Assembly (NCBI GenBank): GCA_015075105.1
Contig: JABTUZ010000002.1
Location: 1,040,001-1,104,000, forward strand
DNA: 64,000 nt
Direction: 5' to 3'
DNA from: Leptospiraceae bacterium
GTDB lineage: Bacteria; Spirochaetota; Leptospiria; Leptospirales; Leptospiraceae
The translations under genes were made by a program, and so were the position numbers. Shown here piece after piece: positions 2,835 through 64,000 of this stretch; position 1 is the stretch's first letter; each line of letters opens with the position of its first letter. The notes beneath the pieces were generated by a model. It did no database searches, had not been told where the DNA came from, and worked only from the letters and a program-made list of their open reading frames with translations.

Positions 2835-2836
2835 AC

Positions 2837-7510: not shown

Positions 7511-7679
7511 GGAACAATTATAATGTAAGGAACGGTTATAATGCAAGGAACGGTTATAATGCAAGGAACAATTATAATGTAAGGAACGGTTATAATGTAA
7601 GGAACGGTTATAATGTAAGGAACAATTATAATGTAAGGAACGGTTATAATGCAAGGAACGGTTTGAAACCGTTCCCTAC
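7507..7679. repeat. Second 18-bp tandem array (nine units) ending in the same REP-like palindrome
   Basis: Nine units start at 7507, 7525, 7543 and so on to 7651, exactly 18 bases apart. The consensus is GYAAGGAACRRTTATAAT. The array ends in the same GGAACGGTTTGAAACCGTTCC palindrome and CCTACGG tail as the array at the left edge. The six-base spacers differ from the first array (TATAAT against GATGTT/GACATT), so the two expanded independently from the same hairpin arm. The array begins at the 3' end of hsdR and ends inside what was the 5' part of a DUF1016 gene. On the minus strand it reads as long hexapeptide runs, which I regard as chance. Confidence 0.9.
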
Positions 7680-9121: not shown

Positions 9122-10057
9122 TTAGTCGTTAAGCATCATGTCTTGAGGCTCACTACAAAAAATATCTGTTTTATCATTTGTAAAAGGGTGGATGAACTCT
9201 AATCTATGTGAGTGGAGAAATTGTCTATGCCCTCCAGTTTTTTGAATATGCTCTTTTTTTAATCCAGACTCAATAAATTCTAAAAACACAGTTTCGTCTC
9301 GTCCATAAATTTTATCTCCTACTACTGGATACCCAAGAGAATGAAGAGTTGCACGAATTTGATGAATCCTGCCGGTTCTCGGGTAGGCAAGCAATTTTGA
9401 GATTGTACCTTTTTCTTCAATTTTTTCAAAATGAGTTTCACATCTTTTTGCTTTATCCTCGGTTGCAGTATTCAAAAATATTTTTTTCTTGATAACTTTT
9501 GAATTTATATCTTTGGATAAAAAACCAATAGCGGATAAGGCTTCGGGAAATTTTCCATAGACATAGACTATGTAAGTTTTTTTGATTTCTCTGTTTTGAA
9601 ATAATTTTTGAAGAGCACTCGCAGCCTTAACTGTTTTTCCAAACATTACTATTCCTGAAGTTTCACGATCTATTCGATTAACTAAATATAAATATTTATT
9701 ATAGTGGCTATTGAGTATTGAAGCAAGATTATTGTTTTTATAACGCCCTGATGGATGTACAGGTAAATTTCCGCTTTTATTAATACCGAGAAAAAATTCA
9801 TCTTCAAAAACTATTTGATATTTTCCATCTACCTCTCGTTCAATAATTTCAGTAGGAGTAAAAATAATCGTATCGGTTTCATTCAATAGATAAGAGACTT
9901 CTCTTGGAATGCCGGACACAGCTATATTTTGATTTTTAATTTCTCTTTGCCATTGCTCATAAGATAGGTAATTGAACTTCTGAGAAAGAAATACATCGAG
10001 TCGCTTTCCTGAGTCATTTGGGCCAATCTGATAAGAAAATTGCTCAATCTTGTTCAT
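9122..10057 (-). CDS. RluA-family pseudouridine synthase
   Basis: Enzymes of this family convert specific uridines in rRNA or tRNA to pseudouridine. The start chosen is the ATG at 10057 (MNKIEQFSYQIGPNDSGKRL), which overlaps the end of the upstream gene by 14 bases. An S4-like N-terminal region (SGKRLDVFLSQKFNYLSYEQ) precedes the catalytic domain, which carries LYLVNRIDRETSGIVMFGKT with the catalytic Asp of the HRIDRxTSG motif; the first residue is Asn instead of His. Other family motifs are AYPRTGRIHQIRATLHSLG and YPVVGDKIYG. The length (311 aa) is normal for RluA/RluD. The exact target cannot be read from the sequence. Confidence 0.9.
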   Translation of the reverse strand: MNKIEQFSYQIGPNDSGKRLDVFLSQKFNYLSYEQWQREIKNQNIAVSGIPREVSYLLNETDTIIFTPTEIIEREVDGKYQIVFEDEFFLGINKSGNLPVHPSGRYKNNNLASILNSHYNKYLYLVNRIDRETSGIVMFGKTVKAASALQKLFQNREIKKTYIVYVYGKFPEALSAIGFLSKDINSKVIKKKIFLNTATEDKAKRCETHFEKIEEKGTISKLLAYPRTGRIHQIRATLHSLGYPVVGDKIYGRDETVFLEFIESGLKKEHIQKTGGHRQFLHSHRLEFIHPFTNDKTDIFCSEPQDMMLND

Positions 10058-11147
10058 TTTCTTCAGCAGGTTCTGTTTCTGTTTGAGGAGATTTAGAAGC
10101 AAGGTAGCTTTCAAGCGATTTCATTTCATCTACCCTTGAAGGGTAAAACTCACACCCTAAACGGAATAACTTTTCTGTTGACTTTATATTTTTAATTACA
10201 GCTCGGTAAGAATTCCTCATATTTTGTGAAAACTGTAAATCAAATATAACAGTAGCCCCATTTGTAAAACTTCGATTCATCATTCTGGTAGGGGAATGCA
10301 AAAAACTTATACCATGTGAATTAAGATCAGATACTTCACAGATTTCTTTTGATTCTTGAAATATTCCGGTTTGTATAATTTCTTTTTTAACGGATGTAGC
10401 TAAAATATTTATTTCATTGAATGATTTTGTATCTAAACAATTTTCCCCAAAAACCTGAATATACCCCAGTGGAACGTAACCTTTATATTTCATGGGAATG
10501 GTGATTTCAGAAATAAATTTATCTTGTAGTTTTGCAATTTTTAGTATTTGTAGATATTCTTCATACGGAAACATATCATTTGGAATAGAATCTTTATCAT
10601 TTCTGTCTGGAATAAAAATTGGCCTGTCAAAACTCATCATCAATCGAAGACGATTGTCCATTTTGTCGGATAAATAAATATATCCATTCCCAAAAGTTTT
10701 TTTTAATTTCACTAAATTAGTCTGCAAGATAGATTCCATATTTTTATCATCAAATTTAAGTGCTTTTAATACATCTGACTGATTTATAATGTTCGTAACA
10801 AACACAGAATCAATACTTCCGTCTGGAAGTGAAATTCTTTCATTTCTTCTGACTGCCGGACCAATGATCATCCTATAAGGTTTTAATACTTCAACTCCAG
10901 AAACCTCATCTCCACCTACAAATAAAAATTCACCGATAATTAGATGGTTGTTGTGGACAATTGATAATTTTCTTTCTCTTGTGTTGAATGCAATTTTGGG
11001 TGAGCGAACAACAAGCCCTTGGGGGCGAAGAGCAATGATTTTAATTGGAAATTCACCGTGGTCAGTTAATATGCTAACGGGAACAATTCCAAATAAAGAA
11101 TTCACTACTTTATTTATACTTTCCGGGTCTGTCAGCTCTTTTTCCAT
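10044..11147 (-). CDS. PilZ-like protein resembling the Leptospira DUF1577 family
   Basis: The protein has 367 residues and no signal peptide or membrane segment. The N-terminal half contains IIALRPQGLVVRSPKIAFNT and YRMIIGPAVRRNERISLPDG, where the RRNER resembles the RxxxR start of a PilZ (cyclic-di-GMP binding) domain. The C-terminal half has a second beta-rich module with CEVSDLNSHGISFLHSPTRM, which resembles the D/NxSxxG element of PilZ, and ends in an acidic tail (ETEPAEENEQD). Leptospira encode similar proteins annotated as DUF1577, with which I associate this one by pattern only. The overlap with the downstream pseudouridine synthase suggests a two-gene unit. A role in cyclic-di-GMP signalling is an inference. 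Confidence 0.55.
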   Translation of the reverse strand: MEKELTDPESINKVVNSLFGIVPVSILTDHGEFPIKIIALRPQGLVVRSPKIAFNTRERKLSIVHNNHLIIGEFLFVGGDEVSGVEVLKPYRMIIGPAVRRNERISLPDGSIDSVFVTNIINQSDVLKALKFDDKNMESILQTNLVKLKKTFGNGYIYLSDKMDNRLRLMMSFDRPIFIPDRNDKDSIPNDMFPYEEYLQILKIAKLQDKFISEITIPMKYKGYVPLGYIQVFGENCLDTKSFNEINILATSVKKEIIQTGIFQESKEICEVSDLNSHGISFLHSPTRMMNRSFTNGATVIFDLQFSQNMRNSYRAVIKNIKSTEKLFRLGCEFYPSRVDEMKSLESYLASKSPQTETEPAEENEQD

Positions 11148-11258: not shown

Positions 11259-11720
11259 TTACTTTGGCTTTTGTCGTTTTAGTCTATCGTAGCGGATTGT
11301 TTTTCTCTTGGAAAGGTAAGCTCCCCCCGCAATCGTGGTTACCGGGGTGGGAACTCCATTCTCGAAGAATCTGCTGGGGAGAATTATGTCCCATTCGGCA
11401 AGGTCAAGCACCAACAGAAGAGTAAAAAGAGCGGTCTTTGTGGTACCAAGCCAGTCTGCAAGAATCCCCAATTCAATCCAGTCCTCGTTATTTGGGGTAA
11501 AATTCTTCTTCTGCAAATTTTGCCCGACCTCTTGATACGCTTTCTTTACCCTCTCCATCTTCTCAAAAGTCCCCCAAAGAATCACATTTCTGTATCTGTT
11601 CAGCAATGCGTGCAAATATTTTCGTCTCGAAAACCCCGTCGTTCTTCTATTGAACTCGTCCATATATTTTGCTGGAACAAGCAAGCTCGATTGGGTTTCT
11701 GTAAATTTTTGTGGGTTCAT
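11259..11720 (-). CDS. DUF1564 family protein, copy A
   Basis: DUF1564 is a paralogous family expanded in Leptospira with unknown function. The 153-residue protein shows the family core: SSLLVPAKYMDEFNRRTTGF, SRRKYLHALLNRYRNVILWG, NFTPNNEDWIELGILADWLG and TTKTALFTLLLVLDLAEWD. The ADWLGTTKTALF part resembles a ribbon-helix-helix or HTH segment, which could mean DNA binding. A good AAGGAG precedes the ATG (ATTTCTCCTTAA on the plus strand). An almost identical copy lies at 39648-40130, and both share a repeat-rich upstream region. Confidence 0.8.
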   Translation of the reverse strand: MNPQKFTETQSSLLVPAKYMDEFNRRTTGFSRRKYLHALLNRYRNVILWGTFEKMERVKKAYQEVGQNLQKKNFTPNNEDWIELGILADWLGTTKTALFTLLLVLDLAEWDIILPSRFFENGVPTPVTTIAGGAYLSKRKTIRYDRLKRQKPK

Positions 11721-21395: not shown

Positions 21396-24152
21396 GTGTC
21401 AGAAACTGTGGTTACAACCGAGAAACCAGCTAGCGATCTCGATAGACTAACATCTCTATTCAATGAAGAAATTTACCTGAGGGTGGACGCAAGCTCCGGC
21501 TCTGTAAGTCCTTCTAAGTTTAAAATTATCGACGATTTGATTGAATTCTTGAAATCAAAATCTAAATTAGAAGAAGCCAAGATAAAAATTGAAGAGCATT
21601 TAAAGGATCACCCGGAGAGTATTTTTGCAAAATATTTAACCGGGATGCTTGCACTTCACCAAAATAAAATCGAAGAATCCAACCACCTAAAGAATTTATT
21701 GGATCAATTCCGTAATTATAAAAAATGGCCAATCATCGAATACATTGCTGATAATATTTTGCAATTCGGAGACCAGAGAATAGCTCTGAAATTTAAAGCA
21801 GAGGCTTTAGAAAATCTAAAGAAAAATAAAGAGCTAAAAGTTGTTCTGGAGAAGTTAGCAAAAACTGACAGGAAAAATCCTGAAATCGCCAAAAAATACG
21901 CTCTCTCTATTTTGGAAGAAGATAGAGAAAAGGCAATATTGTATTTGAAGCAGGCAGCAGAGTCATTTGCAAAAGTAAAGGATTTTGACCAAATTGACGA
22001 AATTTGGCCGATTCTGATTGAGCATAATTTTACAGACATACCATTTTTTGAGAAGATTGAAAGAATACTCGTAGGTCACAGAGAAAAGACAAGACTTGTA
22101 GTGTTGTTGTACCCTTTGGTGGAGCCGTACAAAAAGTTAGAAGACTGGGACAAGACTATCTATCTATTAAAAAAGATCTTAGATTATGAGCCTCAATCTC
22201 CTAAGGCAAGAAATGATTTGATTCGTGCGTACAAGACTAAGTATGCCGACCATTCTCTTTTAGAAGATTTCTTGAAGATGAGTGAAATCGGAAATAACAG
22301 AAAACCGATTAGTGTTTGTATAACAAATTTTGAGAGAAATATCGTATTCGATACGAATAACTATGTATTGCATAGGAGTTGGGGAGTAGGGAAAATTACT
22401 TCTATTAGCAGTACAGGTGATTCTATATTTGTGGATTTCAAAGATAAGAAAGAGCATAAGCTGTCTATTCAAATGGCGATCACAAGTTTGAAACCTCTAA
22501 AATCGGATCATATTTTAGTGAAATACTACGAAAATTCAGAAGCTGTAATCAATCTTTTTAATAACGATATTTCTGCGTTCTTTTTGGAACTTCTTACTTC
22601 AAACGATAACTCTATGAGTATGGCTGAAGTAAAATCAGAGATCATCGGAAAGTTTCTTAAAAAAACTGAAGATTGGTCGAAATGGTGGAGTAAGGCAAAG
22701 TCAACTCTAAAGAAAGAGCCAAAGATAGGTTTTAATCCAAACAAGAAAGATGAAATTTTTTATCGAGACAAACCTATTACACTATCTGAGCAGCTTTCAG
22801 AGAGATTCAATAGCCAGACAGAGCCGAATAAGAAGTTGGAAATTGCAATGGAGGCGCTCAAAGATTCGACTGAAGCAGAAGGGGCTCTTGAGTTAATAAA
22901 CCACTTTTACTACGAAGAAGAAAGTTCTAAAGATACTATGAGAAAAATTGTAGCTTATCTGTTTTTGGAAGAATCTGTGAAAGAATTGGGTGAGGATATT
23001 ACTCGACTTCAAAAAGAATCTGATATAGCGAGTCTAATTCGAGCCTTGAGTAAGACTGAATTATTGACCTATTCAAAGCAAATTACCAATAGCGAAATTA
23101 AAAAAAGTTTTGTGAATCTTATTCATAAATTTCACCCAGAGAATGCAGAAATTTTAATTCGTACTTTGTATGAAGTTCCTGTCAAAATTCACAAGCACGT
23201 ATTTGGCGTATTGGTCAACGATGGAAAATTTTCAGAGCTTAACAAATTCATAGAAAATATTTTAGATAAATCCAAAGAAAACCCAGAAGTCTTTCTGTGG
23301 GTAGCCAAGTCGATATTAACCGACCTTTGGACATACAAAGAAATTCAGGTGAAGTTTTCCGATTTAGTTCTTAGGGTGTTTAGGCTGCTCAAGCCACTTG
23401 TTAAGAAAGAAGAAAAAGGCATGAAGTTGAAAAACCTAACAAATGAAATTTTGTTTGGAGACGAGGGAGCAATTGTAAAAAAAGCAATAGAGTCTGGAGA
23501 TACCGAATATATTAGAAAGCTCTACGCATTGTACAAGGAAGTTCCTTATATAACAGATTCCGAAAAGAAAAAATTTCATGATTTAATCAATGAAATGAAG
23601 CCTGATTTTCAATGGGATGAATCCAATTATGATGAAGATGAATTAGACGATGATATTTGGAACACAATTCCGACTAATGGAATTTTAGTTACAAGATTTG
23701 CGTTCAACGCCAAGAAAGCAGAGTTCGATCACTTGGTCAATGTAGAAATGGCAGAGAATTCCAGAGATATTGGAGAAGCGCAAGAGAAGGGAGATTTACG
23801 GGAAAACGCCGAATACAAGGCTGCAATGGAAAGACAAGTACAACTTCAAGCTGAGATTAAGAAAATTGAGTCTGATCTGAAAAGTGCGATTATTTTAGAT
23901 ATTGCTGGGGTTAGTACGGATAGAATCAATGTGGGTTGCACTGTAAAATTGAAAAATTCCAGTACAGGGGAAGTCCAAGAATACTCTATATTGGGGCCTT
24001 GGGATGCAGACACAAATAAAAATATAATTAGTTATTTGTCTCCATTGGGAAAAAGCCTTCTTGGAAAAAGAGTTGGAGACGAGGCAGTTGTAAGTTTTGA
24101 AAATCACCAGACAAATTTTTCTGTCTTAGATATAGTTCGCTACTCGACTTAA
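21396..24152 (+). CDS. greA: Transcript cleavage factor GreA with long N-terminal extension
   Basis: GreA rescues backtracked RNA polymerase. The 918-residue protein is almost six times the usual 160. The C-terminal ~150 residues are a complete GreA: a coiled coil with RDIGEAQEKGDLRENAEYKA (the acidic tip GDLxENAEY) and a C-terminal globular domain ending SFENHQTNFSVLDIVRY. The first ~750 residues are helical and TPR-like (AKYLTGMLALHQNKIEESNH, DKTIYLLKKILDYEPQSPKA). Spirochaetes are known for such long GreA proteins. The GTG start at 21396 is supported by AAGGAG eight bases upstream. What the N-terminal part binds is unknown. Confidence 0.9.
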   Translation: MSETVVTTEKPASDLDRLTSLFNEEIYLRVDASSGSVSPSKFKIIDDLIEFLKSKSKLEEAKIKIEEHLKDHPESIFAKYLTGMLALHQNKIEESNHLKNLLDQFRNYKKWPIIEYIADNILQFGDQRIALKFKAEALENLKKNKELKVVLEKLAKTDRKNPEIAKKYALSILEEDREKAILYLKQAAESFAKVKDFDQIDEIWPILIEHNFTDIPFFEKIERILVGHREKTRLVVLLYPLVEPYKKLEDWDKTIYLLKKILDYEPQSPKARNDLIRAYKTKYADHSLLEDFLKMSEIGNNRKPISVCITNFERNIVFDTNNYVLHRSWGVGKITSISSTGDSIFVDFKDKKEHKLSIQMAITSLKPLKSDHILVKYYENSEAVINLFNNDISAFFLELLTSNDNSMSMAEVKSEIIGKFLKKTEDWSKWWSKAKSTLKKEPKIGFNPNKKDEIFYRDKPITLSEQLSERFNSQTEPNKKLEIAMEALKDSTEAEGALELINHFYYEEESSKDTMRKIVAYLFLEESVKELGEDITRLQKESDIASLIRALSKTELLTYSKQITNSEIKKSFVNLIHKFHPENAEILIRTLYEVPVKIHKHVFGVLVNDGKFSELNKFIENILDKSKENPEVFLWVAKSILTDLWTYKEIQVKFSDLVLRVFRLLKPLVKKEEKGMKLKNLTNEILFGDEGAIVKKAIESGDTEYIRKLYALYKEVPYITDSEKKKFHDLINEMKPDFQWDESNYDEDELDDDIWNTIPTNGILVTRFAFNAKKAEFDHLVNVEMAENSRDIGEAQEKGDLRENAEYKAAMERQVQLQAEIKKIESDLKSAIILDIAGVSTDRINVGCTVKLKNSSTGEVQEYSILGPWDADTNKNIISYLSPLGKSLLGKRVGDEAVVSFENHQTNFSVLDIVRYST

Positions 24153-39647: not shown

Positions 39648-40130
39648 TCAACGAGGTGTTTTCCTCTTTTCGTCGGGTTTGTGTCGTTTTAGTCTGTTGT
39701 AGCGGGTTGTTTTTCTCTTGGAAAGGTAAGCTCCCCCCGCAATCGTGGTCACCGGGGTGGGAACTCCATTCTCGAAGAATCGACTGGGGAGAATTATGTC
39801 CCATTCGGCAAGGTCAAGCACTAACAGAAGAGTAAAAAGAGCGGTCTTTGTGGTACCAAGCCAGTCTGCAAGAATCCCCAATTCAATCCAGTCATCGTTA
39901 TTCGGGGTAAAATTCTTCTTCTGCAAATTTTGCCCGACTTCTTGATACGCTTTCTTTACTCTATCCATTTTCTCAAAAGTCCCCCAAAGAATCACATTTC
40001 TGTATCTGTTCAGCAATGCGTGCAAATATTTTCGTCTCGAAAAACCCGTCGTTCTTCTATTGAACTCGTCCATATATTTTGCTGGAACAAGCAAGCTCGA
40101 TTGGGTTTCTGTAAATTTTTGTGGGTTCAT
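39648..40130 (-). CDS. DUF1564 family protein, copy B
   Basis: This 160-residue protein is nearly identical to the one at 11259-11720 over the first 140 residues. Differences seen are Glu to Asp in FEKM(E/D)RVKKAY, Glu to Asp in TPNN(E/D)DWIE, and a changed and longer C-terminus (RKTTRYNRLKRHKPDEKRKT here). The upstream sequence, including the AAGGAG and the start of the 67-bp repeats, is also shared. The duplicated block is about 770 bp. This implies a recent copy or conversion event. Function unknown. Confidence 0.8.
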   Translation of the reverse strand: MNPQKFTETQSSLLVPAKYMDEFNRRTTGFSRRKYLHALLNRYRNVILWGTFEKMDRVKKAYQEVGQNLQKKNFTPNNDDWIELGILADWLGTTKTALFTLLLVLDLAEWDIILPSRFFENGVPTPVTTIAGGAYLSKRKTTRYNRLKRHKPDEKRKTPR

Positions 40131-47766: not shown

Positions 47767-50700
47767 ATGAAATATTCTAACCCTAATTCAAAAGAACTGA
47801 TCACATTACTTACAAAACAGATATTAATTTTAGACGGGGCTATGGGAACCATGATTCAAAGGCATAAGCCCACAGAAGAAGATTTTCGCGGGGATTTACT
47901 AAAAAACCATCCCTCGCCTTTAAAAGGGAATAACGACCTATTATCTATCACCCGGCCTAATATTATAGAGTCTATCCACTTAGAGTATCTTCGTGCAGGG
48001 GCAAATATAATCGAAACAAATACTTTTAGTGCAAACTCAGTTTCTCAAGCCGATTATAAATTAGAGCATTTAGTAGAAAAAATAAATCGAGATTCCGTAA
48101 AGTGTGCTAAAAAGGCAATCGAAAATTTTCGGAATGAAAATTCAACCCAACCTTGTTTTATTGCCGGAGCTATCGGACCGACAAACAGAACTGCGTCGAT
48201 GTCGCCTGACGTAAACAACCCGGCATTTCGCGCAGTTAGCTTTGATGATCTTGTCGAAGCCTACTATGAACAAGTAAAGCCATTAGTAGAAGAGGGGGTT
48301 GATCTGCTTTTACCGGAAACAACTTTTGACACTCTAAACTTGAAAGCCGCAATTTATGCGATAGAAAAATATTTTGAAGAAACAAATACCAGAATTCCTG
48401 TGAGTCTATCTGTAACGATAACAGACGCTTCCGGTAGAACTCTTTCCGGTCAAACTTTAGAAGCATTTTATAACTCGATACGTCATGCGAAACCGATAAG
48501 TATCGGAATCAACTGTGCACTCGGTGCATCCGAAATGAGACCCTATCTACAAGAGCTTTCCGATAAATGTGAATTCTATGTAAGCTGCTACCCAAACGCA
48601 GGGTTGCCTAACGCATTTGGGGGATACGACCAAGGCGCAGAAGAATTCGCAAACTATCTAACTGATTTTGCAAAGCATAGCTGGTTAAATATTGCAGGCG
48701 GTTGTTGTGGAACAACTCCAGAACACATTCAAGCGGCTGCCAATGCACTAAAAAATTATTCCCCAAGAGTTCCACCGACTATTTTGCATGAAACAAGGCT
48801 ATCCGGTCTCGAAGCCTTAAACTTAACTGAAGACAAGGGCTTTATATTGGTTGGAGAGAGAACAAACGTTACCGGATCTCCTAAATTCAAAAAACTCATT
48901 TTGGAAGAAAATTTTAATGAAGCCCTATCTGTTGCTGCACAGCAGGTAGAAGCAGGAGCCAATATAATTGATATAAATTTTGATGAGGCGCTTTTGGATG
49001 GTGAAGCCTCAATGACTAAATTTTTAAACTTAGTAGCCAGCGAGCCTGAAATTTCCAAAGTACCGATAATGATAGACAGTTCCAAGCCAAGCGTGATATA
49101 CGCCGGACTAAAATGCTTACAAGGAAAAGGAATAGTTAACTCAATCAGCTTAAAAGAAGGAGAAGAAAAATTTTTAGAAGAAGCAAGAGAAATTAAAAAA
49201 TTTGGAGCAGCTGTAGTTGTCATGGCTTTTGATGAAAAAGGGCAGGCAGCAACCAAAGAAGAGAAAATTAGAATTTGCACAAGGGCGTATAGACTACTCA
49301 CCGAAAAATGTGGGTATGAGTCTTGTGATATAATTTTTGACCCAAATATTTTAACCGTAGGAACTGGAATAGAAGAGCATAACAATTATGCAAAAGATTT
49401 TATAGAAGCCATCCCTGAAATTAAAAAACTTTGCCCTAATGCAAAAATTAGTGGAGGAGTGAGTAATATTTCTTTTTCTTTCAGAGGGAATAATCCGGTT
49501 AGAGAAGCTATGCACACTGCATTTTTGTACCATGCTATAAAATCCGGAATGGATATGGCGATAGTTAACGCCGGGATGCTTGGTGTATATGAAGAAATAC
49601 CAAAAGACCTACTCGAAAAAGTGGAAGATGTACTACTGAATAGAAAATCTGACTCTACAGAAAAGTTAATCGACTTTGCATCCGGTTTTAAAGGAGAAGA
49701 AAAATCCAAAGAAAAAGAAATTCTTTGGAGAAAAGAAAGCGTTGAATCCCGCCTAACGCATTCTCTTGTAAAAGGAATTACTGATTTTATCGACCTAGAC
49801 ACTGAAGAAGCAAGAGCAAAATACAATCGACCGCTTGACGTAATCGAAGGGCCTCTAATGGACGGGATGAAGGTAGTGGGGGAGTTGTTTGGAGCAGGAA
49901 AAATGTTTTTGCCTCAAGTAGTAAAAAGTGCAAGAGTAATGAAAAAAGCAGTAGCTTACCTTCTTCCTTTTATGGAAAAAGAAAAATCGGAAGGTGTCGG
50001 ACGGCCAAAATTTTTAATCGCAACGGTAAAAGGAGACGTGCACGATATTGGAAAAAATATTGTTGGGGTAGTTCTTGCCTGTAATAATTATGAAGTGATT
50101 GACTTAGGTGTAATGGTTCCTTCTGAAAAAATTTTAGAAGAAGCAAGAAAGCAAAATGTAAACGCTATCGGAGTCTCAGGCCTTATTACTCCTTCTCTCG
50201 ATGAGATGGTTCACGTTGCAAAAGAAATGAAAAGAGAAAACTTTTCCATCCCACTTTTCATTGGTGGAGCTACTACAAGTCCAATCCATACAGCAGTAAA
50301 AATTGCAGAAGAGTATTCGCCTGTTGTGCATGTACTCGATGCATCGAGAGTTGTAGAAGTAGTCAATAATTTACTAAATCCAGATACAAAAAAATCTTTT
50401 ATAGAAACAGTGGCTCAAGATCAAGAAAAGATTCGTAAGGACTACTACGACAAAAAAATAGATAGAAAACTACTTAGTATAACAGATGCAAGAAAAAATG
50501 GAGTAAAAACAGATTGGACAAATGCTGATATTCCAACTCCATCGTTTACAGGTTTAAAAATATTTGAAGATATACCACTTTCTGTTCTAAGAGACTACAT
50601 AGACTGGTCTCCTTTTTTTCATGCTTGGGAATTGAAGGGGCACTATCCCGATATTTTATCTGATGAAAAATTTGGACGACAGGCGAAAGAGTTATTTGAA

Positions 50701-51444
50701 AATGCACAAACTCTTCTCGATACTATTATCAAAAATAAAATATATTCTGCAAAAGCAATTGTGGGAATGTACCCTGTCAATTCTGTAGGAGATGATATAG
50801 AAGTTTATGAAGATTTATCGAGAAATAAAACAATCGCAACATTCCACACTCTTCGTCAACAAATGATTAAACCAGAAGGTCAATTCAATAATTCACTTTC
50901 TGATTATATTGCTCCTAAAAACTCTAATCGAATTGATTATCTCGGTTGCTTTGCTGTAAGCGCCGGATTTGGAGTAGAAGAATTTGCAGATAGCTTCAAG
51001 AAAAAATTAGACGACTACAACGCTATCTTAGCAAAAGCGTTAGGCGACAGACTTGCTGAGTCTTTAGCAGAATATATGCACAAAGTTATCCGAGATGAGT
51101 GGGGTTATGGAAAAGAAGAAAATCTAACCAAAGAAGACCTCATTAGAGATAAGTACAGAGGGATCCGACCCGCAGCGGGCTACCCTGCATCCCCGGATCA
51201 TACAGAAAAAAGAATTCTCTTCAATTTACTCCAAGCAGAAAAAAACGTAGGGATAAAACTATCTGAAAATTTTGCAATGATCCCTCCAAGTTCTGTGAGT
51301 GGACTATATTTTTCTCATCCTGAGTCAAAATATTTTGCAATCGGTAAGGTTGGAAAAGATCAGATTGAAGACTATGCAAAAAGAAAAAATATGAGTGTAG
51401 TGGAAGTCGAAAAATGGCTCGCACCACAAATCGACTACAAGTAA
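47767..51444 (+). CDS. metH: Cobalamin-dependent methionine synthase, full length
   Basis: MetH transfers the methyl group of methyltetrahydrofolate to homocysteine through cobalamin. The 1225-residue protein has all four modules: homocysteine domain ([20 protein letters not shown], zinc site [14 protein letters not shown]), folate domain ([20 protein letters not shown]), cobalamin domain ([20 protein letters not shown] with the DxHxxG lower-ligand His) and the SAM activation domain ([20 protein letters not shown]). The length is normal and there is no defect. With ahcY it closes the cycle from SAH to methionine. It is probably transcribed with the ferredoxin gene. Confidence 0.98.
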
Positions 51445-51499
51445 AATTCTTTACAAGTAATTTGAATTTAGAAAAAATAGAATTATTGGAGAATAATTT

Positions 51500-51678
51500 A
51501 TGGTAACTGTAAAAACAAACCTATTTACCGCAGCAAAGATCGCACAAGAATTAGGTGTTTCTGACACAAAAGGAAAAAAATCATCAAAGAATTAAATATA
51601 GAGCCTGCCGAAAAAAAGGGAGTTTGTAATTACTATTCCAAAGATGTGATTGCTAAAGTAAAAAAAGCAATTGCATAG
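51500..51678 (+). pseudogene. Small HTH-like protein gene with a -1 frameshift at an A-run
   Basis: The ATG at 51500 has GGAG eight bases upstream. The first frame reads MVTVKTNLFTAAKIAQELGV, then SDTKGKKSSKN and stops at a TAA. If the ribosome slips back one base at the A AAA AAA run after GGA (about 51571-51577), the protein continues KKIIKELNIEPAEKKGVCNY and YSKDVIAKVKKAIA to the TAG at 51676-51678, about 59 residues. The two halves together form one helix-turn-helix-like protein. Programmed frameshifting, a real mutation, or a sequencing error in the homopolymer are all possible. Confidence 0.6.
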
Positions 51679-51731
51679 TTCGACTCATTGTTCGGAAAAA
51701 TTTTACAAAACAGAATAATTCAAATCTCTTT

Positions 51732-52262
51732 TCAATCGTTAAAAAATATTCTAAATATTTTTCCAGATATTGATAATAAACTTTTCTTTTTAAAAAAGTG
51801 AATCTTAGTATTGATAGTATCTGTTCTGAATGTAATTTCAGAATAAAGGGGAGCAATAACGTAATTTTCATACAAATTCGGATATTGTTTACTTTCGTCC
51901 ACAACTCCATTTTTAAAGGCTTCCAATACTTTAGTAATGATTCGCTTTTCCTCCCTCGACAGTAAGTCCTCGTATTCTTTTATAAGGATCAGTAAAAATC
52001 CACCAACGCCATTCGAGATCAATTTTGGCTCTACCTCTAAATAACCATCCTCTTTCATCTTTACGATTATTTCATTCAATAAATGAGGGTAGGGGCTATC
52101 CTCAAGATGAATGTACTTTTGATCTGTGATTACACTTGAATGCCTTTGAAAATATGCCCCTTCACAATAGTACAATAACTTAGAAAGTTCAACCCTCCCT
52201 CTTCCTTGAGAAGACTTTTTTAAAATAAAAGAAATGACAGATGACAATTTTTCAGAAGACAT
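51732..52262 (-). CDS. Panacea/SocA-like domain protein
   Basis: The Panacea (SocA/GepA, DUF4065) domain often acts as antitoxin to many different toxins. The 176-residue protein has LSKLLYYCEGAYFQRHSSVI, then TDQKYIHLEDSPYPHLLNEI, which is the domain's hallmark (KLLYYA...Y....G....YxxxxxGP), and a later helix REEKRIITKVLEAFKNGVVD. The last 30 residues are basic and hydrophobic. No toxin-like gene is next to it: the divergent neighbour is lipB and downstream is the frameshifted small gene. It is separated from lipB by 11 bases. Confidence 0.6.
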   Translation of the reverse strand: MSSEKLSSVISFILKKSSQGRGRVELSKLLYYCEGAYFQRHSSVITDQKYIHLEDSPYPHLLNEIIVKMKEDGYLEVEPKLISNGVGGFLLILIKEYEDLLSREEKRIITKVLEAFKNGVVDESKQYPNLYENYVIAPLYSEITFRTDTINTKIHFFKKKSLLSISGKIFRIFFND

Positions 52263-52273
52263 AAAATTAACCT

Positions 52274-52915
52274 ATGATAATTACAAACAAAATCCCCAAT
52301 ATTCCTTATTCAAGATACGACAAAATTCAAAACTTTCTAAGAAAAAAAAGAAGGGAAATTCTTATTTTTTTGGAACATAGTTCTTGTATCACTGCCGGAA
52401 TCAATTATAAAATCGAAAACCTATTAGTCAAAGAGGATTTTTTAAAAGAAAAAAAAATAGATCTATTTTTTTTAAAAAGAGGAGGGGACTTTACGGCTCA
52501 CGAAAAAGGGCAGCTAGTAATTTATCCGCATATCGACCTAAAGAAAAGGAATTTACACATTACAAATTTTCTAAAAGTTTTTATAGACTCCATTCAAGTT
52601 GCAATTTTTCAAACTTGGAAACTACAAACTGTTTACAATGAAGCTGACCCCGGTTTATACATCCAAGAAAACCCAAAAAAAAAGATAGTATCTATTGGGG
52701 TTAGTTTCAAATCTTTTTTTACAAGTTTTGGTGCTGCAATAAATATCCAAAATAATTTAGAAATTTTTTCCTATATCAATCCTTGCGGAAAAGACAGCAA
52801 AGATATAGTTTCAATCAAAAGTCTTGGTTTGGATTACCAGAAAGAAAATGCTTTAATCAAAAATTTTACCGAAAAGTTCTTGCAGAAAATAGAAGAAAGA
52901 CATTGGTTGAGCTAA
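52274..52915 (+). CDS. lipB: Octanoyltransferase LipB
   Basis: LipB moves octanoate from acyl carrier protein to lipoyl domains. The 213-residue protein has LFFLKRGGDFTAHEKGQLVI (the RGGDxTYHGPGQLV motif, somewhat divergent), KKKIVSIGVSFKSF with the catalytic Lys, and FSYINPCGKDSKDIVSIKSL with the catalytic Cys in the PCG motif. It lacks the usual Trp-Val-Thr stretch but otherwise looks functional. Its TAA overlaps the ATG of the next gene by one base. Confidence 0.85.
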   Translation: MIITNKIPNIPYSRYDKIQNFLRKKRREILIFLEHSSCITAGINYKIENLLVKEDFLKEKKIDLFFLKRGGDFTAHEKGQLVIYPHIDLKKRNLHITNFLKVFIDSIQVAIFQTWKLQTVYNEADPGLYIQENPKKKIVSIGVSFKSFFTSFGAAINIQNNLEIFSYINPCGKDSKDIVSIKSLGLDYQKENALIKNFTEKFLQKIEERHWLS

Positions 52916-57389: not shown

Positions 57390-57992
57390 TCAAACACCTA
57401 TTCCGGAAAATTCGGAATCGATATTGAGCGAATATTCTCCTGAATCAATTCTTGCTTCCAGGCGACTGCGAATGCCCGATAGAGTTCCGATCAACGTTTT
57501 GAATTGCAATGATTTTGAACGCACTCGCGCAACGATCTGCCCAAACTGTGTAGCAGAAAATGAGTTTCCAAAAATTGCCTTTGCTTCATTGGTCAGAACA
57601 ATGCAATCAACCTGAGAACGTTTTTCCAAATGAAATTCATTTGCTTCTAATTCTTTGACAGCAAAGCTTTGCTTTTCTGCAGAGGTGTAATTTGCTTGAA
57701 CCGAATTTGTGATTGAATCGATTTTTGAGCGAATTTTGGATTTCAGAATTTCCTTAACTTCCGACTCGCTGATAATTCCGAGTTGAAATTTTTCAGCGTC
57801 GGATAACTCAATAGGTCTTCCATCAGCATTCAGTGTAAGCATTCCGGATGCCTCTCTTTTAAACGGAAAAAATTCTCCAATATGACATTGCAAGCCAAGC
57901 TTATACGATTGAATCTGATATCGACTAAACTCAGATTCGTTTATCGTCTGAAATTTGATTCCTTGATTATTGTAACAATAGATAGTCTTCAT
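57390..57992 (-). CDS. Phage tail-associated protein (fibre or fibre-assembly type)
   Basis: The 200-residue protein starts MKTIYCYNNQGIKFQTINES and has a hydrophobic-charged body with MLTLNADGRPIELSDAEKFQ, LGIISESEVKEILKSKIRSK and a predicted coiled region (SAEKQSFAVKELEANEFHLE). DUF4376-like tail fibre proteins show similar elements, but I cannot name the family. Its start overlaps the end of the tail-fibre gene by four bases (ATGA), so it is in the same late operon. It is the last phage gene before the junction. Confidence 0.55.
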   Translation of the reverse strand: MKTIYCYNNQGIKFQTINESEFSRYQIQSYKLGLQCHIGEFFPFKREASGMLTLNADGRPIELSDAEKFQLGIISESEVKEILKSKIRSKIDSITNSVQANYTSAEKQSFAVKELEANEFHLEKRSQVDCIVLTNEAKAIFGNSFSATQFGQIVARVRSKSLQFKTLIGTLSGIRSRLEARIDSGEYSLNIDSEFSGIGV

Positions 57993-59359
57993 GGATTAAA
58001 CTCTCCCCCTGCGATATAAATATATGTTCCTAATTGATTTGAGCGTACTGATTTCCCGACTTGCGGAGTTCCATGAGCGCCATCATCGACGAAATCAGTT
58101 ACTATAAACCCAGGGCCTGAATTTGGTTGATTTGTTCCGACAAAGTAAGAGAATGGTCCGCCGAGATTATCAGCTGCGCGATCTGCAAGAGAGACATTAA
58201 ATCCTTGAAATTGAAACGGCAATAGAATTCCAGATTGGTATGCACTCGCAAGAGTCGTTTCCGGTTTTAGTTTTCGAATTTGCGCTGTCGTGCTTGCATT
58301 TGCGTCTGATGTCCGTATCCGGTGAGGATAAATTTTGATTGTTCCTGGTGCGCTTGTGTCGCTTGTCGAATCGTAATCTATTGTAATCGTTCGATTGATT
58401 GCATCAAAATCTATAATACGATAGTCGCTACCGCTAAACGAACAAACTAAATTCAGACTCGTCCAGTTTGCAGATAAAATCGAATCACCAAAATCAATAG
58501 AATCGTGATAGCGAACCATCCAATTCAATAGCTCGATAAGTGGATCGTTTACGTCTGTATTTTTTGAACCTGATGTATCAAGTTGAATGGTCGTCGGATT
58601 TCCGGGTGTGAATCCTGTATAGTCGATTGCGTCTGACGCACCGAAAAATAAAGTCTGACTCCGTAGTTCAGGAACAAGTGTAGCCCAGTTTGCCTGCAAT
58701 AATGTCGCTGTTTTCGAATCGGCAGGATGAAGTCTCGATATGCAGAGATTTGGGAAACTTGCAGACGGAGGGCACAGCGATGGGTGCTTTGGGTAGTGGA
58801 AAAGTTCACCGACAAGCTTAACACTTCTTTTGACCTTGGTAATTTCGTTTGTTATTGATTGAATTTGTTCTGACTTTACTTCTCGAAAAACACGCAAATC
58901 ATTCCCAAGAGTTATTGTTCCCGATGCAACACTAATTTCGCGGAGCGGAACATCTTTAGGATCTAGAGAACCTTGTCGTGCAAGAACCTCATAATCATTA
59001 TCTAACCAGATAACAGGCCCATCTGAAGGGATGTTGTCTGGGCTCGTGAATTCGGTTTCGGAGAATTTATGACGAACAATAATTTTTGAAGATGCGTTAT
59101 CCGGCACAGATATTCCGGATAAAACAGGCACTTCGATTCTTTTCCCGTCAGGATCATACGCAATTGTAATTTCCGGTAAATCGATCTTTGCGGATCCGGA
59201 GCCGATAGCAACAACCCCACCTTTATGGATTCCCGTTCCAAGGAGATCCTTGTCTCTTTTGATTAATTCCTGAGCTTTTTTTTCCTGCTCATTTTTCCAA
59301 TCTTCAGGAAAAACCCTTTTACCGGTTTCTGGAAATTGAATTCCTGCAAGTGTTTCCAT
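57989..59359 (-). CDS. Phage tail fibre/collar-like protein
   Basis: The 456-residue protein has a helical N-terminal part (VFPEDWKNEQEKKAQELIKR), a beta-rich middle and a C-terminal region LADRAADNLGGPFSYFVGTN, then GTPQVGKSVRSNQLGTYIYI and AGGEFNP. That end resembles the collar-type C-terminus of tail-fibre proteins (VGxxxRPxNxxxxYIIKAG). There is no signal peptide. It probably binds the host surface. It follows baseplate genes in the usual order (J, I, fibre). Confidence 0.75.
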   Translation of the reverse strand: METLAGIQFPETGKRVFPEDWKNEQEKKAQELIKRDKDLLGTGIHKGGVVAIGSGSAKIDLPEITIAYDPDGKRIEVPVLSGISVPDNASSKIIVRHKFSETEFTSPDNIPSDGPVIWLDNDYEVLARQGSLDPKDVPLREISVASGTITLGNDLRVFREVKSEQIQSITNEITKVKRSVKLVGELFHYPKHPSLCPPSASFPNLCISRLHPADSKTATLLQANWATLVPELRSQTLFFGASDAIDYTGFTPGNPTTIQLDTSGSKNTDVNDPLIELLNWMVRYHDSIDFGDSILSANWTSLNLVCSFSGSDYRIIDFDAINRTITIDYDSTSDTSAPGTIKIYPHRIRTSDANASTTAQIRKLKPETTLASAYQSGILLPFQFQGFNVSLADRAADNLGGPFSYFVGTNQPNSGPGFIVTDFVDDGAHGTPQVGKSVRSNQLGTYIYIAGGEFNP

Positions 59360-59395
59360 GCTTCACCTCTATTTTTTGTGAAGCAAATTTGTGCG

Positions 59396-60064
59396 TTAGT
59401 AGATGTAGAGTTCTCTTTTTTTATCGGCTCTACGCGAGTTAAATTTTCCGGTTAAGGTTCCGCCCATTACAAATGGCAGAAACTCACCTTTGTCTTCCCA
59501 TATTTCAAAAACATTTCCACCTGTGTTCATTTTTTCAAGCGTTTTTATTAAAACATTCCGATCAAAATTATCCGGAAGAGATGGAATCATTAATCGATAA
59601 CGGAAGAGAATGTATTTTCTCGTCATCATAGGAGAATTTACCATTCCTCCAATACGGAAATGTTCGATTCCTGCTTCAGAAGAACGATAAATTGAAAAAT
59701 ATTGTATCTCATTTGAATCAACATTTGCGAGAATTTGAATCGATTTTAATTTCGCCGAAACAGCAGGTACGGTTTTCCGGGAAATTTCTTTAAGAAGCAG
59801 TCGGGACTTGAATTGATCGTCACTTTCTCCTGGTAGTTTGGATAATTCCAGCTCAATTCCCCATTCTGCAAGTCCTTGGGAATCCGAGCTGTCGAGCCAG
59901 ATTTGTCTGTACAACCAACTGATTTTTTCTGAGCGATTATTTAGTATGGATAAAATTGATTTCAGTCCACGATACCAAAGTGATGTGATCCCCTTGTCAC
60001 GTATTGTATGCCTTTGATTTTTCCAAACCCAGTGATCGAATTTGAATAAGTAGCGGTCAGGCAT
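59396..60064 (-). CDS. Phage tail/baseplate protein, gpI or YmfQ-like position
   Basis: The start is the ATG at 60064 (MPDRYLFKFDHWVWKNQRHT), with GGAGAAG five bases upstream inside the previous gene. The 222-residue protein contains SEKISWLYRQIWLDSSDSQG, LAEWGIELELSKLPGESDDQ and FKSRLLLKEISRKTVPAV. The pattern 'W...L.L....E....R..L' of YmfQ/DUF2313 and gpI-type tail proteins is present. It directly follows the gpJ-like baseplate gene with an eight-base overlap. The exact family is uncertain. Confidence 0.6.
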   Translation of the reverse strand: MPDRYLFKFDHWVWKNQRHTIRDKGITSLWYRGLKSILSILNNRSEKISWLYRQIWLDSSDSQGLAEWGIELELSKLPGESDDQFKSRLLLKEISRKTVPAVSAKLKSIQILANVDSNEIQYFSIYRSSEAGIEHFRIGGMVNSPMMTRKYILFRYRLMIPSLPDNFDRNVLIKTLEKMNTGGNVFEIWEDKGEFLPFVMGGTLTGKFNSRRADKKRELYIY

Positions 60065-61187
60065 ATACTTCTCCAATGATTGCGTAACCTGATGCTGGTT
60101 CAGCTATTGAGCCGGCAGGTACATCCACATTTCCGGGAGGAACAAATTCAACTTCGATACAATTTGGAAGCGATAGATAAAGAGCCTTTAGATTTGCATC
60201 GATGAAATCCTGACCTTCAACAAGAGAGAGAAAATATCCTTCGCTAATTTCATCCAAAATACTTTGAGAAGGAATTTTATCGGAAGAACTGAACTTGACA
60301 TGAACGATCTTGTCAACCTGAGTGGTGTTCAAGTTCTCCACGGACACATGAGCGACTCCTCCGGGATCATTTTCTTCAAGTAAAAAATGATCTTCGATTT
60401 CGGCAATTTGTACAGACGTTAATGATCCTGAAGCTCCCTGAACAAGAATTTTTACTTCTCCATTCGTACCAAGAGTTTTAGCGCTTTTAAAAATCGCTCT
60501 TTTTACATAGGTAAATTTTTCGGCTTCTGAAACATACCAGTCCGGAGTCCACATAGCAGATATTGAATCGTGAATTTTGATTCTCGACCTGACGAAAGAA
60601 ATTGATTCCCTGAATTGTCCTGTCTGAACCGGATCAGGGTTTGGGTTTGTAATATAATCAATCCCATCGGGAGGCGAATCAATTAAAACGATTGAATCCT
60701 GCACTACATTTCCAACTGGTCCTGTCAGAAGACATTCAACGTCCGCTTCAATAGTAAATTTTCCATTGATATCTGCGGAGACATTGGCGGGCAAAATAAA
60801 AGAATCCAGAATACGAAAACGAATTCTGGTTTCTTCAGCGCCATCCGTTGAAACAACAAGACCTTGTGGAATTTCAATATCCTGAATTGGTTGAATTGAA
60901 GAGCCAATCCTGCAACGGATAACACTTGGTAGTTCTGGTTTCCATTTCATTCCTCGCCGAATCAAATGTTCCTGCAAATCTTCTTCCTCTGCTGTATGTG
61001 GATGAATCGCTTTTTGTATTGATACAAGATTAATATCTACGAAAAGATAGAGTGCGTTTCTGATTGCACGAATGAGAGTGGAGATTTTTGACAAAGGACT
61101 GAATGCAAAATTTTTGAATACGCTGGAGTTTTTGATTTCAGTCATCATCTCAGTTTCAATTTGGGTTTTGGTTACATTCAGATTCAT
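60057..61187 (-). CDS. Baseplate J-like protein
   Basis: Baseplate J (gp47/J) builds wedges of contractile-tail phages. The 376-residue protein has LIRAIRNALYLFVDINLVSI, IQKAIHPHTAEEEDLQEHLI with RRGMKWKPELPSVIRCRIG, and a central SIQPIQDIEIPQGLVVSTDG then SDKIPSQSILDEISEGYFLS. The low-complexity INPNPDPVQTGQFRESISFV region is typical of the fold: FRxxI...P. Its 5' end lies three bases after the gp25-like gene and the 3' end overlaps the next gene. It supports a myovirus-like or tail-like particle. Confidence 0.85.
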   Translation of the reverse strand: MNLNVTKTQIETEMMTEIKNSSVFKNFAFSPLSKISTLIRAIRNALYLFVDINLVSIQKAIHPHTAEEEDLQEHLIRRGMKWKPELPSVIRCRIGSSIQPIQDIEIPQGLVVSTDGAEETRIRFRILDSFILPANVSADINGKFTIEADVECLLTGPVGNVVQDSIVLIDSPPDGIDYITNPNPDPVQTGQFRESISFVRSRIKIHDSISAMWTPDWYVSEAEKFTYVKRAIFKSAKTLGTNGEVKILVQGASGSLTSVQIAEIEDHFLLEENDPGGVAHVSVENLNTTQVDKIVHVKFSSSDKIPSQSILDEISEGYFLSLVEGQDFIDANLKALYLSLPNCIEVEFVPPGNVDVPAGSIAEPASGYAIIGEVYA

Positions 61188-61189
61188 AA

Positions 61190-61546
61190 TTACCTCATGA
61201 TATAATTTTTCAGGGTCTGACCAGACTTTAAACGGAAATTCAACGATAGCCGTTTTTCACTCGTTAGTTCAACATCAATTGAATCAGGATCAATCAGAGG
61301 ATTGAGTGCGAGGATTCTCTCGGCATCGCGGACTCTGTATCTGTCATCCGATTCATCGGAATTGGTAGCGAGTCTTTGTTTGCTGTAAATTCCCGGGTAA
61401 TCTATATCATCCGCTACTCCCAGTTCGAGAGATTCCATAACTTGATAAAGAACGCATTGCATGATATCCGGTTCTGTCGCCAGATCATTTGAACCTGAAT
61501 CCAGGAATAAATCATATAACTCAGTTGGATCATTGGCTAAATCCAT
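61190..61546 (-). CDS. Phage baseplate wedge protein, gp25/W-like
   Basis: The 118-residue protein has DLFLDSGSNDLATEPDIMQC, VLYQVMESLELGVADDIDYP and DDRYRVRDAERILALNPLID, with the typical 'RV.DAERIL' near a strand and a C-terminal LSLNFRLKSGQTLKNYIM. Size and position between gpV and gpJ agree with gp25/gpW. Its stop is three bases before the gpJ-like start and its ATG overlaps the gpV-like stop by one base. Confidence 0.7.
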   Translation of the reverse strand: MDLANDPTELYDLFLDSGSNDLATEPDIMQCVLYQVMESLELGVADDIDYPGIYSKQRLATNSDESDDRYRVRDAERILALNPLIDPDSIDVELTSEKRLSLNFRLKSGQTLKNYIMR

Positions 61547-62127
61547 CAGGTTCCTCCTTTCGGCGGGCCGGAAACCGATGGACCAATTGGCGAGTCCGTA
61601 TAATCTGTAAGGTGCGAACTAAGTCCGACAGACCCAGGTGTTCCTTCGAAAGCAGTAACTTCTTGTTTTGCCTTGACGTTTCCCGTAGTTTTAATGTCGC
61701 CTAACGTCTGCTCTATATTGCCATTTTTTATAGTAAACTTTTTTCCTTTGAGGTCAAGTTCGACTCCCAACGAATCAAATTTCCAGGTAATCGCCCCATT
61801 GTTATGGCTAACTAAGATTTCTGTCTGATTCATTTTCACCGAGTGGATTTTTGAGGCTTTAAACTCAATTTCATCGTATTCATCCACTTCAACTAACGTA
61901 TATTTTTCGGGACTATTATCCCGCGAGATAATTACACATTTGGATCCTACAAGAGGCTTTCCTTTGAAAAACCATGTTACATCGTGCTTAACTTCGTTTC
62001 TTACTTTTACCTTGCATGAATTTTGAGATACCGACAAAATTGTTCCGGATAACGGGTAGTGCATCGGATGACCGATCTTCCACGCTTTGACAATTGCCGA
62101 GATAATGTCTCTTGCTTTTTCCATCAA
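61546..62127 (-). CDS. Phage baseplate spike protein, gpV-like
   Basis: The 193-residue protein has an OB-like N-terminal part (MHYPLSGTILSVSQNSCKVK, VGSKCVIISRDNSPEKYTLV) followed by repetitive beta-helix-type segments (KFDSLGVELDLKGKKFTIKN, IEQTLGDIKTTGNVKAKQEV). The C-terminus VGLSSHLTDYTDSPIGPSVS, then GPPKGGT, is a classic spike-tip ending. The His-containing 'SH..TD......G.P' region can bind a metal at the apex. It overlaps the gpD-like gene by four bases. Confidence 0.85.
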   Translation of the reverse strand: MMEKARDIISAIVKAWKIGHPMHYPLSGTILSVSQNSCKVKVRNEVKHDVTWFFKGKPLVGSKCVIISRDNSPEKYTLVEVDEYDEIEFKASKIHSVKMNQTEILVSHNNGAITWKFDSLGVELDLKGKKFTIKNGNIEQTLGDIKTTGNVKAKQEVTAFEGTPGSVGLSSHLTDYTDSPIGPSVSGPPKGGT

Positions 62128-63206
62128 CTTCGAATCAACCTCCCTTCCTGTTTTTGAGGCGGAGATTCCGGTTTCTTTTTTGGCTCTTCATAAAAATATC
62201 CCGGAAAAATTTCTTGCCTGTATTTTGCATTTCCTCCATCGAAGTTTTTTATGATCTTATTCACAAAAGTTTTCGCGCTTCTTGACGTATCCTCCAAGTC
62301 TAGAATTTCTATTATCTGGGAATGTTGGACAGATGGAAACCCAAATGTAGTAAATTTTCCGTTAAACCCGGAACCGCATTGTTCCGCAAATAGTTCTTTT
62401 GCTCTCGAAGTTGCCTGCTTCTTATCCAACCCGTCGATCTCGTAATACTTTTTTTCTCCCTTGATTCCGAACTGCCCAGAGTATTGAGTTCCTGTTTTGG
62501 GATTTTCACCCCTGACGATAATTATGAAATCTTTTTTCAAGCGCGGGATCAAACTATCCTCAATGATATTGTATTTGAATTGAAAAACTGGAATATCTTT
62601 CGAAGATCCACTTTCTGTTCCTGACGCGGCTTTGGATTTTGTAACCTTTTTATCTTTCTCTTGAGTGAATGCATTTCGTTTTACAAAAGCTTTCTGAACG
62701 CACAATTTCCAGTCTCGGAAAAATACATCGAGTCCATATTTTGCGCTTAGTTCCCATAGTGCAAATCGACCGCTTTTGTTCGCGCAATTATTGATTGAAA
62801 TCGTCTTTGGCGCTTCTGGGTCGATCTTTAGTGTAATATCTTTTTTGATTTTAGAATGAAGGCAATCCTGCAGAAATCCTGCTAGTGGGTGATTATTATA
62901 ATTTCTCTTCATTGTTTGAAGCTGACAATAGTGCATAGGGTCTACGCATTTGATTTCAAACGGAATCGTTGGACTTACCTCCCTGACATATCCCGAAAAT
63001 TCAGGGAAAAGTCCGTACTGTGTATAGCCGGCTTTCCAGGTCACTTTATCATCCGGCTTTATATCGTCTTTTTTCAAATTCTTGTATTTAGGAAGTTTAA
63101 CGACTAACGTATCTGTAGGAATTTCACGCGAGGTTTCAAGAATCACTTCGCGAACGATGGGAATTTTGAATTCCCCGATTTTCAATTCCTGATCCAAGAG
63201 CAACAT
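62124..63206 (-). CDS. Phage late control/hub protein, gpD-like
   Basis: The 360-residue protein belongs to the gpD/gp27 hub family by position and pattern: ILETSREIPTDTLVVKLPKY, KDDIKPDDKVTWKAGYTQYG, FPEFSGYVREVSPTIPFEIK and CANKSGRFALWELSAKYGLD. The C-terminal third has DLEDTSRSAKTFVNKIIKNF and basic tail KKPESPPQKQEGRLI. It lies between the LysM-type and gpV-like genes, as expected. It overlaps both neighbours. Confidence 0.75.
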   Translation of the reverse strand: MLLLDQELKIGEFKIPIVREVILETSREIPTDTLVVKLPKYKNLKKDDIKPDDKVTWKAGYTQYGLFPEFSGYVREVSPTIPFEIKCVDPMHYCQLQTMKRNYNNHPLAGFLQDCLHSKIKKDITLKIDPEAPKTISINNCANKSGRFALWELSAKYGLDVFFRDWKLCVQKAFVKRNAFTQEKDKKVTKSKAASGTESGSSKDIPVFQFKYNIIEDSLIPRLKKDFIIIVRGENPKTGTQYSGQFGIKGEKKYYEIDGLDKKQATSRAKELFAEQCGSGFNGKFTTFGFPSVQHSQIIEILDLEDTSRSAKTFVNKIIKNFDGGNAKYRQEIFPGYFYEEPKKKPESPPQKQEGRLIRS

Positions 63207-63568
63207 TACTTCAACCTCTTTTCGCAGGCGACCAAGTCTGCTTTCGATACAAGTGCCGGAATAAAATATTCTACTCCTATATTTTCATAGGGTTGAGCGT
63301 TCAGGTTTTCCTCTCTCAATAGTCCGGCAAAATGTTCTGTTAGATAATAGAGAAGAGAAATGGACTCAAAAGTATCGCCTTCTTCTGCAATGTGAAAAGT
63401 CGGCTCTGTCGGAATATCCGGAATGTTTAACCGGTTACCGGCTACAAGATTTTCCCAATCCTTGATATGAGGATTGTTATCCCTGATTACAGGATAGAGT
63501 TCCCACTTATTATATAGCTTGGCAGAAATTCTCTGCAGGGTATCATTTTCCCGAATCGTATAGATCAC
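63206..63568 (-). CDS. Phage tail protein with LysM domain, gpX-like
   Basis: The 120-residue protein has two LysM-like segments: TIRENDTLQRISAKLYNKWE, ENLVAGNRLNIPDIP, and FHIAEEGDTFESISLLYYLT with ENLNAQPYENIGVEYFIP. In contractile phages such proteins join tube and hub. It overlaps the DUF6046-like gene by four bases and the gpD-like gene by one base. Confidence 0.8.
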   Translation of the reverse strand: MIYTIRENDTLQRISAKLYNKWELYPVIRDNNPHIKDWENLVAGNRLNIPDIPTEPTFHIAEEGDTFESISLLYYLTEHFAGLLREENLNAQPYENIGVEYFIPALVSKADLVACEKRLK

Positions 63569-64000
63569 AAAGAATCTCCCGTAGAATCAGAGCCAGCTTT
63601 GTCGAGAGCGTAATCTTCTTCGTCTGAAAGTGCCGTCAGGATGATTGGCTGGTTATATTGTATTCCGCTGTCCGGAAGCTCAAATGTTTTCAGAACAATA
63701 TTTTTGATTTTTAATGCGTTAAGTCTATCGTTAATAACAGGCAGAGAAGTTTGTTCGATCCAAAGCGATCTCAGTTCTTTGAGTTTTGACAGCATGGATT
63801 GCAAAAGCGGAAGCGAAAAACTGTATGTCGCCGCAAGCAGGGTAAATTCTATTCTCACCTGCCAGTCATCAAACCCGGACATCTCTTTAATTGTGCCTTT
63901 ACGTCCATTGATCTTGGTAACTGTAATAATCTTTTCCTGACGAAGACTGATTTTTGTCGCCGAGGGGAACTCATATCCGAACAGCTCGTCTCCGAGCGTT
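63565..64000 (-). CDS. DUF6046-like phage protein, partial at the right edge
   Basis: The frame is open beyond an internal ATG (63882) up to the window edge, so it runs at least 144 codons. Upstream residues read LGDELFGYEFPSATKISLRQ, then EKIITVTKINGRKGTIKEMS and GFDDWQVRIEFTLLAATYSF. This is the pattern of DUF6046, a phage-associated family of unknown role found close to LysM tail genes. The 3' end (KIKNIVLKTFELPDSGIQYN) is complete. The rest of the gene lies to the right. Confidence 0.65.
   Translation of the reverse strand, partial: TLGDELFGYEFPSATKISLRQEKIITVTKINGRKGTIKEMSGFDDWQVRIEFTLLAATYSFSLPLLQSMLSKLKELRSLWIEQTSLPVINDRLNALKIKNIVLKTFELPDSGIQYNQPIILTALSDEEDYALDKAGSDSTGDSL

Follow-up and report, generated by a model that had tools for sequence, protein, structure and literature searches.

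The question raised by this locus is whether a small HTH gene, whose coding sequence changes frame close to an A AAA AAA heptamer, is decoded by ribosomes that slip into the -1 frame or has lost a single base, either in the strain itself or only in its assembled sequence. The gene lies in a window of 64,000 nucleotides (contig JABTUZ010000002.1, positions 1,040,001 to 1,104,000, of the Leptospiraceae bacterium assembly GCA_015075105.1), and all coordinates below are counted from the first letter of this window. The explanation favoured here, with a probability of roughly 0.87, is a single-base frame lesion in a minimal RacA/excisionase-like HTH gene, which is either recent or present in the assembly only, and for which no recoding is needed. 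The frame break in this small gene is real but ordinary, and recoding is unlikely.

Reading frames of the HTH gene

The gene and its surroundings comprise the following features.

47767..51444, + strand: metH (methionine synthase), the upstream neighbour (NF007024, 1999.5 bits), ending 55 nt 5' of the HTH start
51488..51491, + strand: RBS-like GGAG, 8 nt 5' of ATG 51500, read directly
51500..51595, + strand: first half of the HTH gene in frame 0, from ATG to TAA, 31 codons, N-terminal HTH part
51562..51564, + strand: TGA in the -1 frame, bounding the possible shift zone on its 5' side
51572..51574, + strand: codon 25 (GGA, Gly), the favoured place of the lesion, hydrophobic in 11 aligned homologues
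51574..51580, + strand: A7 run in the phase A AAA AAA, encoding a conserved Lys-Lys pair
51574..51678, + strand: second half of the HTH gene in the -1 frame, 34 residues and then TAG, without an early start codon of its own
51732..52262, - strand: SocA/Panacea-domain protein, the convergent downstream neighbour (PF13274, E 2.6e-9)

The frame-0 stop of the HTH gene is the TAA at 51593-51595, and the -1 frame is open from just past the TGA at 51562-51564 through the TAG at 51676-51678. Because of this TGA and this TAA, the change of frame is confined to 51565-51595, a zone that includes the A7 run at 51574-51580, and joining the halves at the A-run gives an HTH protein of 59 residues. On its own, the first half matches HTH_11 weakly (E 0.029, below the cut-off). 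The second half was also considered as an independent gene, which was ruled out, since the first ATG, GTG or TTG of the -1 frame is the GTG at 51646. An Rfam scan of 51400-51800 gave zero matches, and a search for terminator-like sites within 51100-52350 found none.

Homologues and distribution

A search of the phylum with the read-through protein, made before any relative was known, returned relatives that match across the join (residues 6-58, E 7.9e-9; residues 5-57, E 7.6e-8; residues 2-55, E 1.6e-5), showing that the two halves belong to one protein beyond chance, as the original prediction had proposed. This search covered 392 genomes, including the genome of the window, at E 0.01, and four of them matched, i.e., the window and three relatives; the same four were recovered from the phylum genomes by a profile search at E 1e-4. 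Each of the three relatives (L005, L006 and L007, all of the same phylum) encodes the small protein in one unbroken frame, the third starting within a longer stop-to-stop frame. The read-through aligns with them without gaps save at the N-terminus and the last residue, and a profile built from these relatives alone gives the window protein 50.4 bits, again without an internal gap. A frame shift at the same place, which the original prediction would have looked for in relatives, is thus absent from three of three, in a comparison in which the genus is represented by this genome alone. The relatives are just 36-40% identical, so that the state of the break in close relatives lies outside this comparison, and this weighs against the lesion.

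The HTH gene is rare in the phylum, being carried by 4 of the 392 genomes, own included. It was found in none of the 7 other genomes of the family (E 0.001) and in none of the 29 others of the order, either at E 0.01 or with the profile at E 0.001, while 2 of the 47 other genomes of the class carry it. When E values up to 1 were allowed in the order, weak partial matches appeared in 13 of the 29 other genomes, the best of which (0.0061) lies inside a 639-aa frame; these were not accepted as homologues. The three other genomes in the class of genome G040 yielded no further copy. Plasmid records gave 12 matches to the window protein (best E 0.05), all from Ligilactobacillus, and relative P0002 as the query gave 8 plasmid and 3 phage records, with best E values of 0.09 and 0.07. 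None of 459 candidates from viral contigs and none of 149 from genome contigs was confirmed. Eight genomes with metH loci, drawn from the best 80 of 591 metH relatives, were searched with P0003 as the query, and in one of the eight a 225-aa frame matched weakly (E 0.007). As read from the ORFs, the neighbours of the gene look different in the relatives, and a shared operon is not apparent.

Kind of protein

The window protein reaches no Pfam or NCBIfam cut-off; the families that come nearest are RWP-RK, HTH_11, RacA and the ICEBs1 excisionase (E 0.01-0.03). A family profile that includes the window sequence has its best match among solved structures in the RacA DNA-binding domain (chain 5i41, E 8e-4), and when E values up to 1 are allowed, HTH_17 and MerR_1 are each matched by two of the four aligned proteins (best 7.5e-5 and 5.9e-4). 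Thus the product is read as a putative HTH DNA-binding protein of about 59 residues, minimal and RacA/excisionase-like (MerR-type). It would resemble the RacA N-terminal domain, the small HTH proteins of HTH_17 and MerR_1 and the ICEBs1 excisionase in having an HTH followed by a short C-terminal part at a similar length, whereas it differs from RacA-type proteins in ending at about 59 residues, with neither a coiled coil nor an effector part. The best single family match of the read-through is phrog_989 in PHROGs (E 3e-5, residues 5-42), a phage family of unknown function; however, only one of the four family members matches it, and a search of phage records with the window protein gave zero matches.

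Position of the lesion

If the halves were joined by slippage on the A-run, residue 25, a core site of the recognition helix, would be Gly. This residue is I, V and V in the three relatives, V in RacA, and V, I, L or F in all 11 aligned homologues, a set that consists of the three relatives, five HTH_17 matches from the own genome (two of them below the cut-off) and one each of the 12, 8 and 3 listed plasmid/phage records, and that contains several weak matches and was aligned by MAFFT only. In the profile of the relatives, Gly has a probability of 0.009 at this position vs. 0.398 for Val. A slip at the AAA preceding codon 25 would give Arg, as read from the sequence.

The Gly at residue 25, set against the hydrophobic residues of the homologues, argues that the lesion sits at codon 25. 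Slippage requires two coincidences, i.e., a broken frame and an independent odd substitution just before AAA AAA, whereas the loss of one base in codon 25 requires a single event. As far as the aligned residues can tell, the most plausible position of the lesion is within codon 25, either overlapping the A-run or immediately 5' of it. One base lost there would explain both the frame break and the odd Gly; however, Gly 25 could also be real variation, which is a point against the lesion. As written, the gene would encode only 31 residues and stop within the HTH, and this truncated product is presumably inactive, suggesting a loss of function. More generally, the residues flanking a break, compared with those of intact relatives, can suggest a lesion that lies outside a run.

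The original prediction of a -1 shift at A AAA AAA thus holds for the frame break and for the A7 run in the right phase, but finds no support for the A7 as the point of the shift, which residue 25 would rather place in codon 25. The homopolymer error that it had offered as an alternative is possible as an error, but the residue evidence, by putting the lesion inside codon 25, speaks against a simple change in the length of the A-run.

Heptamer background

An in-phase heptamer is ordinary in this window, because 54 of them (41 A AAA AAA and 13 A AAA AAG, one inside metH) occur in the 46 ORFs of at least 150 aa, which make up 51,309 bases of long-ORF sequence. Among the phases of A7 in the long ORFs, the shift phase is the commonest (41 vs. 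23 and 21); in E. coli, according to a passage of PMC4066793, A7 is underrepresented in every frame. Of 16,643 31-nt long-ORF windows, 424 (2.5%) contain an in-phase A AAA AA[A/G], and among the 1,370 that code for Lys-Lys the share is 31%. Since about one such heptamer occurs per kilobase of long ORF here, a textbook slippery heptamer at a frame break means little in this AT-rich window.

The A7 run of the HTH gene encodes Lys 26 and Lys 27, which are invariant across the four-member alignment, and two relatives show AAA AAA and AAA AAG at the site in genes that are unbroken. In L006, the full, classic A AAA AAG stands in the shift phase at the same place, which counts against the lesion, though the gene there is unbroken. 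Because the Lys-Lys pair is conserved and two relatives have such codons in unbroken genes, the A-run is expected from the protein sequence in an AT-rich genome, and because the family has Lys-Lys here and the heptamer is common at such pairs, the closeness of the break to the A7 is weaker evidence. The A-run is probably a bystander to the lesion.

Deletion or sequence error

The break fits the BLASTp-validated singleton class of Antonov et al. 2013, as described in parts of PMC3711429. The HTH gene shares with the singleton frameshifted genes and young pseudogenes treated there one frame break, intact homologues and no conserved site, and no difference was seen in the tests. According to the same passages of PMC3711429, an unclustered frameshift can stem from a sequencing error, a recent indel, an adjacent gene pair or an orphan gene with recoding. 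The break in the HTH gene is absent from its homologues and the rest of the gene is alignable, as is the case for a pseudogene or an error. A single-base lesion of either origin is further favoured by the whole protein in one frame in the three relatives, without internal gaps across the site, by the commonplace heptamer with no well-placed fold right after it, by a search of the own genome that found no second copy (E 0.001), and by true decay elsewhere in the window (hsdR, described below). However, for a dead gene, both halves are remarkably clean.

A true one-base deletion in the strain, which would have left a young pseudogene, has close to an even chance. The gene appears dispensable in the group, being carried by 0 of 7 family and 0 of 29 order genomes, and the hsdR of the window looks truly broken, but neither side of the break shows a second lesion. 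The original prediction had taken the good coding sequence on both sides as an argument against old decay, and the well-preserved halves agree with it, suggesting that the lesion is probably not old. As no other damage is seen, it would be recent, or else present in the assembly only.

A sequence or assembly error, with the gene intact in the cell and one base missing from the record, is a serious candidate at somewhat under even odds. It agrees with the lack of further damage in the gene, and passages of PMC3711429 expect BLASTp-validated singleton frameshifts to reflect sequencing errors, not true indels. However, 75 A/T runs of at least 7 lie inside the 46 open ORFs, suggesting that runs are generally read right, although this count is biased by the choice of ORFs for their openness, and the favoured lesion is not a simple miscount of the A-run.

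Programmed frameshifting and slippage

A programmed -1 ribosomal frameshift at A AAA AAA, the other possibility raised by the original prediction, would produce the full protein and, as a by-product, the 31-residue piece, and is very unlikely. The slippery heptamer is present in the right phase inside the frame overlap, which is the sole possible zone, as in programmed -1 frameshift genes that use A AAA AAG/A, among them dnaX and the IS3-family transposases. However, the HTH gene is neither dnaX nor a known transposase, its short product ends inside its only domain, its relatives need no shift (3/3 continuous), and no well-placed structure follows the heptamer. Passages of PMC3711429 and PMC4066793 name A_AAA_AAA and A_AAA_AAG as known shift motifs, but the long ORFs of the window hold 54 such heptamers, and slippage would set Gly at a core, hydrophobic site.

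Stimulators of the shift appear weak or absent, and none is convincing. An SD-like AGGTG lies upstream with a spacer of 17, at the limit of the range, and only 5 of the 54 control heptamers have an SD-like element in range, which makes it a small point in favour of the shift and against the lesion. The main hairpin lies about 60 nt downstream, near the stop, while the 30-nt stretches that begin 3-8 nt past the heptamer show no fold (0 kcal/mol), and the folding energy of the 56 nt downstream is equalled by 17 of the 54 controls. Compared with shuffles, the post-heptamer regions gave z -1.85 (11/200 as good) and z -1.11 (25/200), the first of which, as a somewhat better fold, speaks against the lesion. 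A low level of slippage is possible despite the lacking stimulators, because a passage of PMC4066793 reports measurable shifting in E. coli for 39 of 64 heptamers that had no stimulator, and this is a further point against the lesion. Literature searches on programmed ribosomal frameshifting in Leptospira or with A-AAA-AAG, and on Leptospira pseudogenes or homopolymers, returned nothing relevant as judged by title.

If the shift were true, a regulator would depend entirely on recoding for its production while having almost no stimulator, an unusual arrangement. In such a case, a lineage-specific -1 shift at a nearly bare A7, made by the ribosome or during transcription, might keep the HTH protein at a low dose in the genus, with Gly 25 as a real derived residue, a scenario that we regard as highly improbable. 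Transcriptional slippage or phase variation of the A-run, in which a fraction of transcripts or cells would carry one extra A, is very unlikely. The A7 run at the break speaks for it, but the run is short (runs of A above 7 are named for programmed transcriptional realignment in a passage of PMC3711429), the 46 ORFs hold as many as 75 A/T runs of 7-9, which makes such runs common in this window, and the product would still carry Gly 25.

Other features of the window

The hsdR gene (type I restriction subunit) at 4708-7510 (+) is read in two frames, with parts at 4708-5238 and 5198-7510. It jumps from position 134 of 198 in the HSDR_N profile to position 35 of SWI2_SNF2, so that an internal stretch between HSDR_N and SWI2/SNF2 is apparently missing, which has the look of a true deletion. 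Where hsdR ends (7466-7654), the minus-strand reading is a tandem LHYNRS/LHYNCS repeat. A 74-residue fragment at 2819-3043 (+) is cut short by a stop and has no Pfam match at E 0.001; we take it to resemble the start of a RhuM-type protein.

The genes at 11259-11720 (-) and 39648-40130 (-) are identical in their first 45 residues, the former encoding a DUF1564 protein, and DUF1577 is found at 10044-11147; the two families together presumably point to Leptospira-type genomes. Tightly packed minus-strand genes at 57390-63882 (-), one with a LysM-like start, give the impression of a contractile tail or injection cluster, and no Pfam match at E 0.001 was obtained for the one gene scanned among them (57989-59359). 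A protein of 918 residues at 21396-24152 (+) combines a GreA/GreB C-terminal domain with a long N-terminal part that has a sub-threshold TPR match.
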